Source of the DNA: Clostridia bacterium
GTDB lineage: Bacteria; Bacillota; Clostridia; Oscillospirales; CAG-272
NCBI GenBank assembly: GCA_017937135.1
Contig: JAGBEE010000015.1
Span: forward strand, 1 to 63,027
DNA: 63,027 nucleotides
Direction: 5' to 3'
The notes beneath the pieces are model-generated. The model was not told the origin of the DNA. It saw nothing but the letters and a program-made list of their open reading frames with translations, and made no database searches. Positions 28,831 to 31,957 of the stretch are shown piece after piece. The position numbers and the translations under genes are program-made. The first letter of the stretch is position 1; each line of letters starts with the position of its first letter.

Positions 28831-29784
28831 ATGGCAAATATCGCTTTACTAAATAGATGCAATTTAAAATGTCCCTATTGCTTTGCCAGTAGCTACACAG
28901 GCTCTGAGGGGGAGGATATAAGCGAGGAGGCTTTTGAGAAGGCACTCGCCTTTGTCGCAAACGACAGAGAGGTCGGCTTAATTGGTGGTGAGCCATTTTT
29001 GCATAAGAAAATAAATGATTTCTTAGAGGAGCTTAAATTTGACGCGCGCTTTTTCAGAGTGACGATTTATACAAACGGGATTTTTATCGAAAATTCAATA
29101 GGACTTTTAACAGACAGAAAATTTAATTTGCTTATAAACGTCAACTCAAGACGCGATATAGGAGAAAAATACTTTGAGAAATTAAAGAATAATATTGGTG
29201 CGCTGCTTTACGTGATGCCAAAGGACAGAATAACGCTGGGCATAAACGTGTATGAAGAAAATCAGGACTTTAGTGATTTTTTAGAGGTTGTTAATGAGTA
29301 TGGATTTAAGAAAATAAGGGTTAGCTTAGTAATTCCACACGATAAAAGCGAGGGCGCAATGGCGTATTTTGCAAGAATGAAGGGTACGCTTTTGTCACTT
29401 TATCAGGAATTAAAGACACTTGGCGTTAGTCCCTGCTACGACTGCAACGTAATACCCGAGTGCGTATTTACAAAGGAGGAAAGAGAGCTTTTGCAAACGC
29501 TCAGCTTTGAAAGTGAGTATGAGAGGGAAATTTTCTTGGGCAAGCGCCCGGTTTGCTCACCTATTGTCGATATTTATCCCGATTTAACAGCAACAAGATG
29601 CTTCGGAATGTACGATAGCGAGAGGGTGAAAATAACCGACTTTAAAAATATAGACGATTTGAAAAATTATTTCTTTATGAAAATAGACTCAAAATTAGTA
29701 CATAATCTATCAAAGCCCGAATGTCAGTCGTGCTACAAATATAACACCTTTGGATGCTTCGGAGGCTGTCTTTGCTATAAATAA
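28831..29784 (+). CDS. Radical SAM protein with C-terminal Cys cluster
   Basis: This 317-residue protein starts almost at once with CNLKCPYC, the CxxxCxxC site for the SAM-bound [4Fe-4S] cluster, and GGEPFLH follows. Later Cys residues (PCYDCNVIPEC, RPVCSP, RCFGM, and CQSCYKYNTFGCFGGC near the end) suggest one or two auxiliary clusters of SPASM/twitch type. Such enzymes often modify peptides or mature other proteins. No precursor peptide gene is evident beside it, so the substrate is unknown. A stretch of repeated nnr sequence follows. Confidence 0.85.
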   Translation: MANIALLNRCNLKCPYCFASSYTGSEGEDISEEAFEKALAFVANDREVGLIGGEPFLHKKINDFLEELKFDARFFRVTIYTNGIFIENSIGLLTDRKFNLLINVNSRRDIGEKYFEKLKNNIGALLYVMPKDRITLGINVYEENQDFSDFLEVVNEYGFKKIRVSLVIPHDKSEGAMAYFARMKGTLLSLYQELKTLGVSPCYDCNVIPECVFTKEERELLQTLSFESEYEREIFLGKRPVCSPIVDIYPDLTATRCFGMYDSERVKITDFKNIDDLKNYFFMKIDSKLVHNLSKPECQSCYKYNTFGCFGGCLCYK

Positions 29785-29822: not shown

Positions 29823-29953
29823 CCCCTTCCCCGCTGGGGAAGGCTATAGGAGAGAATATGAAAGAAGTAGTAAGTCTTGAAAATATGAAAAAAAGCGACG
29901 AATATACCTGTAATAACCTAATTCCCTCACGGGAGCTTATGTATAGGGCGGCG
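29823..29953 (+). repeat. 131-bp direct repeat, copy A
   Basis: This block is the same as 30432-30562 except for one base (C at 29876 where copy B has T). It comprises the CCTTCCCC...GGGGAAGG palindrome, the ribosome-binding site and the first 32 codons of nnr. The near-identity shows a recent duplication linked to the inserted DUF559 element. Confidence 0.92.
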
Positions 29954-30019
29954 AAAAGCCTTCCCCAGCGGGGAAGGGGGACCGCAAGGGCGGTGGATGA
30001 GGAGGTCATTAACGAATAG
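29858..30019 (+). pseudogene. Truncated duplicate of the nnr 5' end
   Basis: The frame opens with the duplicated start of nnr (MKEVVSLENMKKSDEY...). After residue 32 (MYRAA) it runs into the left inverted end of the DUF559 element and stops after 21 further codons, giving 53 residues. Its ribosome-binding site is intact, so the fragment may be translated, but no epimerase domain remains. Confidence 0.8.
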
Positions 30020-30454
30020 ACTATGATATACAAATATGACAAAAATCTAATTTCATACGCCAAAGGCTTACGGAAAAATATGACACCTGAGGAAAAACAT
30101 TTATGGTATGATTTTTTAAAAAAGTTGCCAATTACGGTAAATAGGCAAAAAAATATAGGCGCATTTATAGTTGATTTTTTCATTGCAAGCAAACGAATTG
30201 TTATTGAGCTTGATGGAATACAGCATACTATGCCAGAGAATAAATTAAATGATGCAAATAGAGATGACGAACTAATGCGCCTTGGTATTTCAGTGCTAAG
30301 GTATTCTAACTTTGACATTAATAAAAATTTCAACTCGGTTTGCAACGACATTTTAAACCACTTGGGGTTAGGGTGGGAAGAGTTAAAACAAAAAATATAA
30401 AATGCTCTCCTCATCCACCACTAACGTGGTCCCCCTTCCCCGCTGGGGAAGGCT
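29957..30454. mobile_element. DUF559 endonuclease element with 54-bp inverted ends
   Basis: The left end (29957-30010) and the inverted right end (30401-30454) match in 46 of 54 positions by my count. Each end has the palindrome CCTTCCCCAGCGGGGAAGG, then a small hairpin, then GGATGAGGAG. The small hairpin is ACCGC/GCGGT on the left and ACCAC/GTGGT on the right. The base pair changes together (G-C to A-T) and the loop differs. Between the ends is a single gene, the DUF559 endonuclease. No transposase is present. The element interrupts a 131-bp duplicated target. Confidence 0.75.
30023..30400 (+). CDS. DUF559 (Vsr-like) endonuclease-fold protein
   Basis: This 125-residue protein has ARGL-type LRKNMTPEEKHLWYDFLKK at the start, then IGAFIVDFFIASKRIVIELDG, which holds the Asp and Glu of the PD-(D/E)xK-like core, and IQH. 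It ends with the late RLGISVLRYSNFDI motif. Length and motifs are those of complete DUF559 proteins, which share the fold of very-short-patch repair endonucleases. No DNA-binding domain is added. The gene fills the space between two inverted hairpin ends, which suggests it nicks or cuts at such hairpins. That is an inference. Confidence 0.85.
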   Translation: MIYKYDKNLISYAKGLRKNMTPEEKHLWYDFLKKLPITVNRQKNIGAFIVDFFIASKRIVIELDGIQHTMPENKLNDANRDDELMRLGISVLRYSNFDINKNFNSVCNDILNHLGLGWEELKQKI

Positions 30455-30562
30455 ATAGGAGAGAATATGAAAGAAGTAGTAAGTTTTGAAAATATGAAAA
30501 AAAGCGACGAATATACCTGTAATAACCTAATTCCCTCACGGGAGCTTATGTATAGGGCGGCG
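30432..30562 (+). repeat. 131-bp direct repeat, copy B
   Basis: This is the second copy of 29823-29953, continuous with the intact nnr gene. Its first 23 bases also form the outer part of the right inverted end of the DUF559 element, so the element end and the duplicated target share the palindrome. Confidence 0.92.
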
Positions 30563-31957
30563 CTTGGAATATATAAAAATGTAAGCTGGCATGGCAAAAT
30601 TGCAATAGTATGTGGTAGTGGAAATAACGCAGCAGATGGCTATGCTTTAGCATCTATTCTTAACAAAAACGGCTATGACGTGTCGATAATTTTGCTTTTT
30701 GATAAGCTTTCTAACGATGGAAAATACTATTTCGACATATGCAAGGAGCAGGGTGTCAGCTATTTAAGCTACAGGGAAGGCGCGCTTAATAATTACGATA
30801 TAATAGTTGACTGTATTTTTGGCATTGGCTTTAAGGGTCAAATAGATGGAATAGCTAAGGCTTGCATAGAGGAAATAAATAGCACAAGGGCATATATCGT
30901 ATGCGCTGATATAAATAGTGGACTTTTAGCAAATAGTGGTATTTGCGACTTATGTGTTATAAGTGACCTGACCGTTTCTATCGGCTCATATAAGTCAGGA
31001 CACATTTTGGGCATGGCTAAGGACAAAATAAAGAGCCTTGTAAACTGTGATATTGGTATAAAATTATTAGACAAGCCATTTATGCTTATAGAGCAAAGCG
31101 ATGTAAAGGAGGCTTTGCCTAAAAGAGAACATTTTTCGCATAAGGGCACGTATGGCTATGTTACATTAATTGGTGGCAGCTATGAATATAGTGGAGCATT
31201 AAAGCTTGCAAATCTTTCCGCCTCTGCGGTAAGAAGTGGGGCGGGAGTAGTGCGCTTGGCAACTCCCAAAAGCATCGGATACGCTGTAATGCCATATATC
31301 TTAGAGAGCACGCTTTATCCACTTAGCGAAGCAGACGGAGCTATAAAATTTGACGAAAACGAGATACAGGGTGCTATAAATTCCACAAAATCGGTTGGAA
31401 TTGGAATGGGCATGGGTCAAAGAGGCGATAATGAGGAGGTTATTACCTATCTTTTGAAAAATTACTCGGGTACACTTGTAATAGATGCCGATGGCTTAAA
31501 TACGCTATCTAAGATGGAGCTTTCGCTTTTAAATGATGCTAAATGTAAGGTTGTTTTAACACCACACCTAAAGGAATTTGAAAGGCTAAGCGGCATACCT
31601 GTTGACGAGATACTACATGACCCTATTTACTATGCAAAGGACTTTGCAAAAAAATATGGAGTAATCTTGCTTTTAAAGGGTACATCAACTATAATTACAG
31701 ACGGAGAAGATGTAAGAATTACAAACACAGGGTGCCAAGGAATGGCAAGTGGTGGCTCTGGAGATGTGCTCCTTGGAATTATAAGTGCACTATGCGCTCA
31801 AATGCAGGGCAGGGAGCTTGAGGCAGTATGGGCGAGCGCCTACATTAACGGTAGAGCCGGTGAGATTGCCTCCCGTCAATTGTGCGATATATCAATGTCG
31901 GCAGGGGACACAGCGATGTGTGTTGCATTGTCTATTAAGGAAATAGTAGAGAGCTAA
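30467..31957 (+). CDS. nnr: Bifunctional NAD(P)H-hydrate repair enzyme (epimerase and dehydratase)
   Basis: This 496-residue cytoplasmic enzyme repairs hydrated NADH and NADPH. Residues 1-205 are the epimerase domain (CGSGNNAADGYALA, DCIFGIGFKGQI, CADINSGLLANSG). Residues 220-496 are the ADP-dependent dehydratase domain (GTYGYVTLIGGSYEYSGA, VIDADGLN, TPHLKEF and GGSGDVLLG with the catalytic Asp). The ATG has TAGGAGAG six bases before it. The 5' end was duplicated by insertion of the DUF559 element, but this copy is complete. A terminator follows. Confidence 0.93.
   Translation: MKEVVSFENMKKSDEYTCNNLIPSRELMYRAALGIYKNVSWHGKIAIVCGSGNNAADGYALASILNKNGYDVSIILLFDKLSNDGKYYFDICKEQGVSYLSYREGALNNYDIIVDCIFGIGFKGQIDGIAKACIEEINSTRAYIVCADINSGLLANSGICDLCVISDLTVSIGSYKSGHILGMAKDKIKSLVNCDIGIKLLDKPFMLIEQSDVKEALPKREHFSHKGTYGYVTLIGGSYEYSGALKLANLSASAVRSGAGVVRLATPKSIGYAVMPYILESTLYPLSEADGAIKFDENEIQGAINSTKSVGIGMGMGQRGDNEEVITYLLKNYSGTLVIDADGLNTLSKMELSLLNDAKCKVVLTPHLKEFERLSGIPVDEILHDPIYYAKDFAKKYGVILLLKGTSTIITDGEDVRITNTGCQGMASGGSGDVLLGIISALCAQMQGRELEAVWASAYINGRAGEIASRQLCDISMSAGDTAMCVALSIKEIVES

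Follow-up and report, generated by a model that had tools for sequence, protein, structure and literature searches.

A stretch of 63,027 nucleotides from a Clostridia bacterium (contig JAGBEE010000015.1), hereafter called the window, carries at about positions 29957-30454 a unit in which a single gene, encoding a DUF559 (PF04480) protein, lies between inverted ends that can fold into hairpins. We conclude that this unit is probably a small mobile element in autonomous form, with a DUF559 nuclease of the Vsr/EDxHD type as its only gene, and thus part of a nuclease-only system that resembles those built on repetitive extragenic palindromic (REP) sequences. Its ends are structured and inverted, its insertion has left long duplications, versions without the gene have also spread, and the structure of the ends has been under selection.

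The two arms of the unit are 54-nt inverted repeats that are 85% complementary and 390 nt apart. Each contains, in order, CCTTCCCC-AGC-GGGGAAGG, GGG, an inner hairpin and GGATGAGGAG, and the pyrimidine arm CCTTCCCC faces the purine arm GGGGAAGG in an outer hairpin. When folded as single-stranded DNA, both the left end (-15.1 kcal/mol, z -4.35) and the right end (-12.5 kcal/mol, z -3.68) form two hairpins, and for each end none of 200 shuffles folded as well. The inner hairpins of the two ends differ by one compensated base pair and in their loops. An earlier note, made from the sequence, had described 54-bp inverted ends with a palindrome and a short hairpin, covariation between the two inner hairpins, and a complete DUF559 gene without a transposase. 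All of these descriptions were borne out: no transposase gene is present inside the unit, and its one protein is a complete DUF559 domain (PF04480, E=3e-25, 88.7 bits relative to a curated cut-off of 20.6). By itself, one altered pair between two ends is weak evidence, and its support comes from the wider sets of ends described below. The palindrome pattern (two mismatches or fewer) occurs three times in the window and was absent from 100 shuffles; its third copy, at 29825-29843, is terminator-like by score on the minus strand. An Rfam scan of the unit locus gave nothing above threshold and one match below it. The features of the locus are as follows.

About 29957-30454: the whole DUF559 unit, a single gene between inverted ends.
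29957..30010, plus strand: left end of the unit (inverted-repeat search, single-stranded DNA folding).
29959..29977, plus strand: left outer hairpin, with pyrimidine arm 29959-29966 and purine arm 29970-29977 (sequence, folding, covariation).
29981..29994, plus strand: left inner hairpin, ACCGC-AAGG-GCGGT (sequence, folding, covariation).
29995..30004, plus strand: left purine tail GGATGAGGAG, a mirror image of the outer purine arm.
30023..30400, plus strand: predicted DUF559 (PF04480) nuclease gene, 125 amino acids (profile match, structure comparison).
30401..30454, minus strand: right end of the unit (inverted-repeat search, single-stranded DNA folding).
30407..30416, minus strand: right purine tail GGATGAGGAG.
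30417..30430, minus strand: right inner hairpin, ACCAC-GTTA-GTGGT as read on that strand (sequence, folding).
30434..30452, minus strand: right outer hairpin, overlapping the beginning of the right duplication copy.
29823..29953, plus strand: left copy of a 131-bp direct repeat, holding a palindrome, the ribosome-binding region and the first nnr codons as a stranded fragment.
30432..30562, plus strand: right copy of the 131-bp direct repeat, continuing into intact nnr.
28831..29784, plus strand: host radical SAM gene, upstream of the insertion.
30467..31957, plus strand: host nnr, encoding NAD(P)H-hydrate epimerase/dehydratase, downstream of the insertion.

The earlier note overlooked the third palindrome copy, the mirror relation of the tail and the 131-bp direct repeat that brackets the unit, whose two copies are 99% identical. 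All 29 genomes of the genus that were compared contain nnr, and only the genome from which the window derives has a second nnr start. In 11 relatives the fetched stretch included a radical SAM gene upstream of nnr. The matches to these two genes are separated by 10-86 nt in 10 of the 11, as opposed to about 685 nt in the window's own genome; in the eleventh relative the spacing is about 810 nt and appears by eye to accommodate another open reading frame. Because the neighbouring genes adjoin in relatives and an additional nnr fragment is present here, we conclude that the unit was inserted with duplication of 131 bp. Another target is the 3′ end of the NAD synthase gene (nadE), which carries an element in three genomes (G026, G006 and G015), with 98-107 bp of the gene end repeated. 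The duplicated nadE tail is restricted to these three among the 22 genomes with a strong match. Empty sites that can be read at the level of single bases are provided by G018 and G023 (92% identical protein), each with one uninterrupted gene end. Insertions are found at unrelated genes, namely nnr, the NAD synthase gene, histidine kinase genes, and the pnt and suf operons. The unit is therefore mobile, as the earlier note had proposed, and the empty targets that it suggested seeking in relatives exist both at the window site and at nadE.

Matches to PF04480 occur in 22 of the 29 genus genomes (0-8 per genome). Among the 47 genes, of 51, that are complete and have both flanks, 29 have a two-hairpin end within 120 bp on both sides, 14 on one side and 4 on neither. 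The corresponding numbers for control open reading frames are 1 of 134 on both sides and 4 of 134 on one side. DUF559 genes thus sit between such ends beyond expectation, a check that had also been suggested beforehand. The other DUF559 gene of the window's own genome (L001) likewise lies between two-hairpin ends, of different sequence, and additional end families were encountered at loci of other Clostridia, Lachnospiraceae and an Anaerovibrio metagenome-assembled genome, among others. When inverted flanks were assessed by score (18 reached), they were present at 33 of 46 genus genes, 47 of 75 wider genes and 10 of 244 control windows. Direct repeats (score at least 30) flank 20 of 46, 11 of 75 and 3 of 244, respectively. 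Genes that were identical, had only a partial domain, lay in long frames or had short flanks were excluded from these sets, and the genus and wide sets overlap. A second repeat family, in which GATTCCATA links small palindromes into arrays such as CACGCGATAGCGTG, lies beside several ends in the window's own genome (L001 1360-1440 and 1900-2020, L196, L221).

Comparison of the ends supports selection for pairing, though not perfect conservation. In an alignment of 37 ends, 96.2% of cells pair (78.2% when shuffled), with 102 two-sided changes (34.5 when shuffled) and a covariation score of 0.569 (0.237 when shuffled; best slid control 0.217), figures that are inflated because the scanner used to choose these ends requires two hairpins and so partly builds in the pairing. 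A second set was picked solely by sequence similarity and covers 85 of 126 genes. In this set 69 of the 85 left ends fold with z below -2 relative to mononucleotide shuffles. Among 302 left-end pairs differing in the right end, 73 show two-sided changes and are still paired, 45 show one-sided changes and 184 are broken, and after partners were re-dealt the values were 12, 36 and 126 of 174. The selection on a folded single strand that had been claimed from the window is supported by this comparison. We abandoned a separate argument, that the rarity of G-U pairs indicates DNA over RNA, since the scanner is built to accept few such pairs; the 45 one-sided changes in the set chosen by sequence similarity undercut it further.

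The purine tail that follows the hairpins varies together with the outer purine arm. In the window, the tail GGATGAGG resembles this arm read backwards and does not resemble its complement: GGGGAAGG reversed is GGAAGGGG, which is identical to the tail at 6 of 8 positions, or at 7 of 8 when T over A counts as a match. The rule across end families is that G stands opposite G, that A or T stands opposite A, and that T is present where the purine arm starts with C. For 54 distinct arms, tails score 6.65 of 8 with their own arm and 5.85 with the arms of other families, a difference attained in none of 5000 permutations (z 8.6), and the complement control for the same arms gives z 1.2. On positions 4-8 alone, 115 arm/tail combinations yield z=6.8; positions 1-3 are excluded from that test because the tail detector requires a GGA, TGA or GGT start. 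Watson-Crick pairing of the tail with the 5′ arm was also considered and was rejected (z=0.7). In other phyla, 12 DUF559-adjacent ends from Escherichia, Neisseria, sphingomonads, rhizobia, Photobacterium and Deinococcus obey the mirror rule (0.94 versus 0.695, 0 of 5000 permutations), with the limits that they were picked by eye at 11 of 16 fetched non-Bacillota loci (L241-L250, L308-L313) and that one scored 5/9 in fixed register. In these ends the inner hairpin is often replaced by a 3-nt linker. A mirror repeat lacks the dyad symmetry that would serve a protein reading the duplex, whereas an antiparallel purine-motif triplex requires such a repeat. Since the mirror tail changes together with the purine arm, we propose a fold comprising the outer hairpin, a turn and a third strand, wherein the purine tail would act as the third strand of a triplex.

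Ends are dispersed well beyond DUF559 genes. A covariance model built from the 37 ends identified matches in 28 of the 29 genus genomes, at 0-111 per genome, and these counts are lower bounds because 150 candidates were scored per genome. Ends that are widespread without DUF559, an outcome that the earlier note had set against its own proposal, were thus indeed found. The sole genome without ends also has no DUF559 match. Furthermore, the number of ends correlates with the number of DUF559 matches (Spearman rho 0.78, p=5e-7, n=29 related, non-independent genomes), as expected if the repeats are mobilised in trans. Among the 31 ends of the window's own genome are found copies without the gene. 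A gene-less 200-bp unit is present at two places, where 193 of 200 positions are identical and similarity ends at the unit ends; like a miniature inverted-repeat transposable element (MITE), it is a short gene-less unit with inverted ends at different sites. At L228 1500-1850 (C28), two copies of one end lie amid direct repeats (about 115 bp) that apparently derive from the end of a gene, as for a solo-end insertion with a long duplication. A lone outer palindrome with neither inner hairpin nor tail was also noted between two coding regions (L003 1500-1520, C1).

The abundance of dispersed ends could alternatively mean that the structured ends are REP-like repeats moved in trans by some other enzyme, and that DUF559 is a trapped passenger. 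Ends do greatly outnumber DUF559 genes, six genomes have ends without a detected DUF559 (G003, 26 ends; G004, 5; G005, 40; G010, 12; G011, 6; G020, 21), and a Y1 (HUH) transposase of the REP-associated tyrosine transposase (RAYT) class has a match in 12 of the 29 genomes. However, a search for Y1 (PF01797), which did not extend to DDE or other transposases, detected none in the remaining 17 genomes. These include the window's own, with its 31 ends, and three of the four end-richest genomes (G017, 111 ends; G008, 93; G012, 83). Moreover, DUF559 is repeatedly found between ends, in Bacillota, Pseudomonadota and Deinococcota, no second gene of a known family is present in the unit, and the end and DUF559 counts correlate. 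We therefore consider the passenger explanation unlikely.

Another explanation is that the direct repeats were produced by tandem duplication or by unequal recombination among scattered palindromes, and that the hairpins are terminators or RNA-stability elements. By our reading, the direct repeat consists wholly or largely of ends at 6 of the 20 genus loci with repeats, which would suit such an origin, as would the repeat at L001, which belongs to another repeat family, and the terminator-like palindrome at 29825-29843. At the other 14 loci most of the repeat, 42-134 bp long, comes from outside the ends, and these 14 include L001 and three loci that share the single nadE site. What makes this explanation very unlikely is that single-copy empty sites exist for both the window insertion and nadE, and that the gene-less unit is found at two places with different flanks.

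The protein itself is predicted to be a nuclease with the PD-(D/E)XK fold of the Vsr/EDxHD type. Its predicted structure (mean predicted local distance difference test score 78.9, predicted template modelling score 0.74) was compared with solved structures using Foldseek. The nearest folds are those of I-Bth0305I (3r3p, E=1.4e-4) and NGO0050, a DUF559 protein (3hrl, E=1.5e-4), and Vsr is more distant (1cw0, E=0.03). Profile matches to solved structures give 7.6e-19 for 3hrl and 5.6e-4 for 3r3p. Residues E24, D51, E62, D64, H68 and D77 are invariant in 20 sequences, and we take the conserved acidic and His residues of DUF559 to correspond to the catalytic set of I-Bth0305I and Vsr. At ranks 4-6 Foldseek placed proteins from the mitochondrial ribosomes of Toxoplasma and Tetrahymena (E about 0.001-0.002), possibly a distant use of the DUF559 fold. 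DUF559 matches are present in 3 of 50,697 phage records. The E. coli member YcjD has previously been predicted to be a PD-(D/E)XK protein (PMC1189080), and the Caulobacter DUF559 protein VsrA is tied to a DNA damage response (PMC12907096). The least probable of the alternatives is that the gene encodes a defence or homing nuclease whose borders are merely recombination arms: the fold of the homing endonuclease I-Bth0305I is among the nearest and PADLOC matches the protein to DpdF (1.2e-7) and a type II restriction endonuclease (8e-4), but the insertions lie at unrelated genes rather than at one cognate allele and copies without the gene move too.

For a mobile element that encodes this nuclease alone, we infer a role of DUF559 in movement and propose the following mechanism. 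A strand exposed in single-stranded form, for example at replication, would allow each end to fold into the outer hairpin and inner turn, with the purine tail lying back onto the outer stem as an antiparallel purine-motif triplex. DUF559 would recognise the folded ends and then nick. Nicks spaced about 40-130 nt apart on opposite strands would open the target, the gap would be filled by host repair synthesis, and the element would be copied or captured when short homologies, in some cases a palindrome already in place, anneal. Nicks placed far apart, combined with host repair, would generate long duplications and imprecise junctions, and solo ends and MITE-like pairs would be mobilised in trans. 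Unit junctions contain several unmatched bases, which fits repair joining better than precise strand transfer. Annealing at resident ends is suggested by the window, L044, L001 and perhaps L017, where the left duplicate already has a palindrome at its left edge.

Several observations weigh against the proposal that DUF559 moves these units by way of folded ends. Ends far exceed DUF559 matches (1121 versus 65 in the 29 genomes), six genomes, all incomplete metagenome-assembled genomes, have ends without a detected DUF559, and the correlation between the two counts was computed across genomes that share ancestry. By score, 13 of the 46 DUF559 genes of the genus and 28 of the 75 in the wider set lack inverted flanks; six of the latter were inspected, and each has a two-hairpin end somewhere near. 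In the set picked by similarity, many left-end pairs (184) are broken in the right end. With regard to the tail, a direct-repeat rule also beats all 5000 permutations (z 3.7, versus 8.6 for the mirror), and the purine richness of both tails and arms raises the chance of mirror matches. Finally, we know of no strand-joining activity for PD-(D/E)XK nucleases, and copying would therefore have to depend on the host.

If the proposal is correct, the units would represent a way for DNA to move that needs only a nuclease and makes very long target duplications, a function for a family named as one of unknown function, and a natural example of a selected DNA triplex. They could also explain palindromic repeats that lack a known mobiliser, such as the CGTC REPs, for which this gap has been noted in the literature (PMC3733652). 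We found no account of DUF559 mobility in the literature searched, which was mainly open-access, with few subscription papers and almost no bioRxiv preprints. More tentatively, and with somewhat less than even confidence, we suggest a categorically new class of mobile element, defined by triplex-forming single-stranded DNA ends, a Vsr-like reader, far-apart nicks with host synthesis and duplications of about 100 bp. This class would take in the ycjD repeat and the hairpin repeats next to DUF559 in rhizobia, sphingomonads, Deinococcus and Neisseria, and would supply an enzyme for some orphan REP-like families.

A candidate relative is present in laboratory E. coli. In strain K-12 the DUF559 gene ycjD (L241 5408-5761) lies beside fabI, with a mirror-tailed hairpin repeat downstream that is perhaps the one called 'box C'. 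This repeat, like the ends of the window unit, has a hairpin and a mirror tail, here joined by TTA, and it follows the mirror rule at 10 of 10 positions. In contrast to the window unit it has no inner hairpin, and the ends at ycjD are degenerate by eye. At an E-value limit of 10, E. coli genomes in which this repeat matches at all have it at 1-35 places, with a median of 19. In a phylum-level sample, DUF559 was found in 82 of 299 genomes, and roughly 40 of the 95 DUF559 places listed there lie in open frames of more than 1000 amino acids. In Sphingomonas parapaucimobilis (L245, L309), DUF559 genes lie inside operons, where they separate pnt transhydrogenase subunit genes from each other and sufB from sufC. 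In three Deinococcus species (L243, L311, L312) it occupies varying positions among hpa catabolic genes, with the order of hairpin and tail reversed relative to the gene. No ends were seen at the cyanobacterial locus L242; the flanks of L246 are hairpin-rich and repeated, and L248 is a long fusion.

Among known systems, classical DDE insertion sequences differ from the window unit in encoding a DDE transposase and in making a short, fixed target duplication; the unit has no such gene, and its duplications are long and variable (42-134 bp). MITEs are more similar, in that gene-less DUF559-type units are bounded by inverted ends and have been copied to different sites. A homing endonuclease gene would occupy one cognate allelic site, whereas DUF559 units are found at different host genes. 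I-Bth0305I and Vsr share the predicted fold and the conserved acidic and His residues, but the DUF559 unit lies outside introns, has no fixed cognate site and is flanked by folded ends.

The closest parallels are with REP sequences. CGTC REPs apparently have no dedicated transposase (PMC3733652). Some inner hairpins of the ends, when read on the other strand, are CGTC-stem-loop-GCCA, with tags like those described for CGTC REPs. A possible link between DUF559-unit ends and these repeats is suggested by such sequence likeness. We do not claim that the ends are CGTC REPs. In a strict test, the CGTC tag precedes a stem of 4 or more in 34 of 233 ends (CGTC REPs are defined by the CGTC tag, an 8-9 bp stem and a CCA tail), and the expected repeat CGTCATTCC was not found around the Neisseria DUF559 gene in the fetched stretch, 1.5 kb on each side. 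The REP/REPIN and RAYT (TnpA-REP) systems, or 'REPtrons', combine dispersed hairpin repeats, often in inverted pairs, with a small number of units that carry a gene, presumably the one responsible for mobilisation (PMC3733652). DUF559 units share with them the many dispersed copies and a copy number tied to the gene. There is no constant GTAG tag at the hairpin foot among the 37 aligned ends, unlike in REP/RAYT systems. The ends of DUF559 units instead combine two hairpins with a mirror tail and are associated with long target duplications, and the enzyme is a predicted PD-(D/E)XK/Vsr-type nuclease in place of the HUH tyrosine transposase RAYT.
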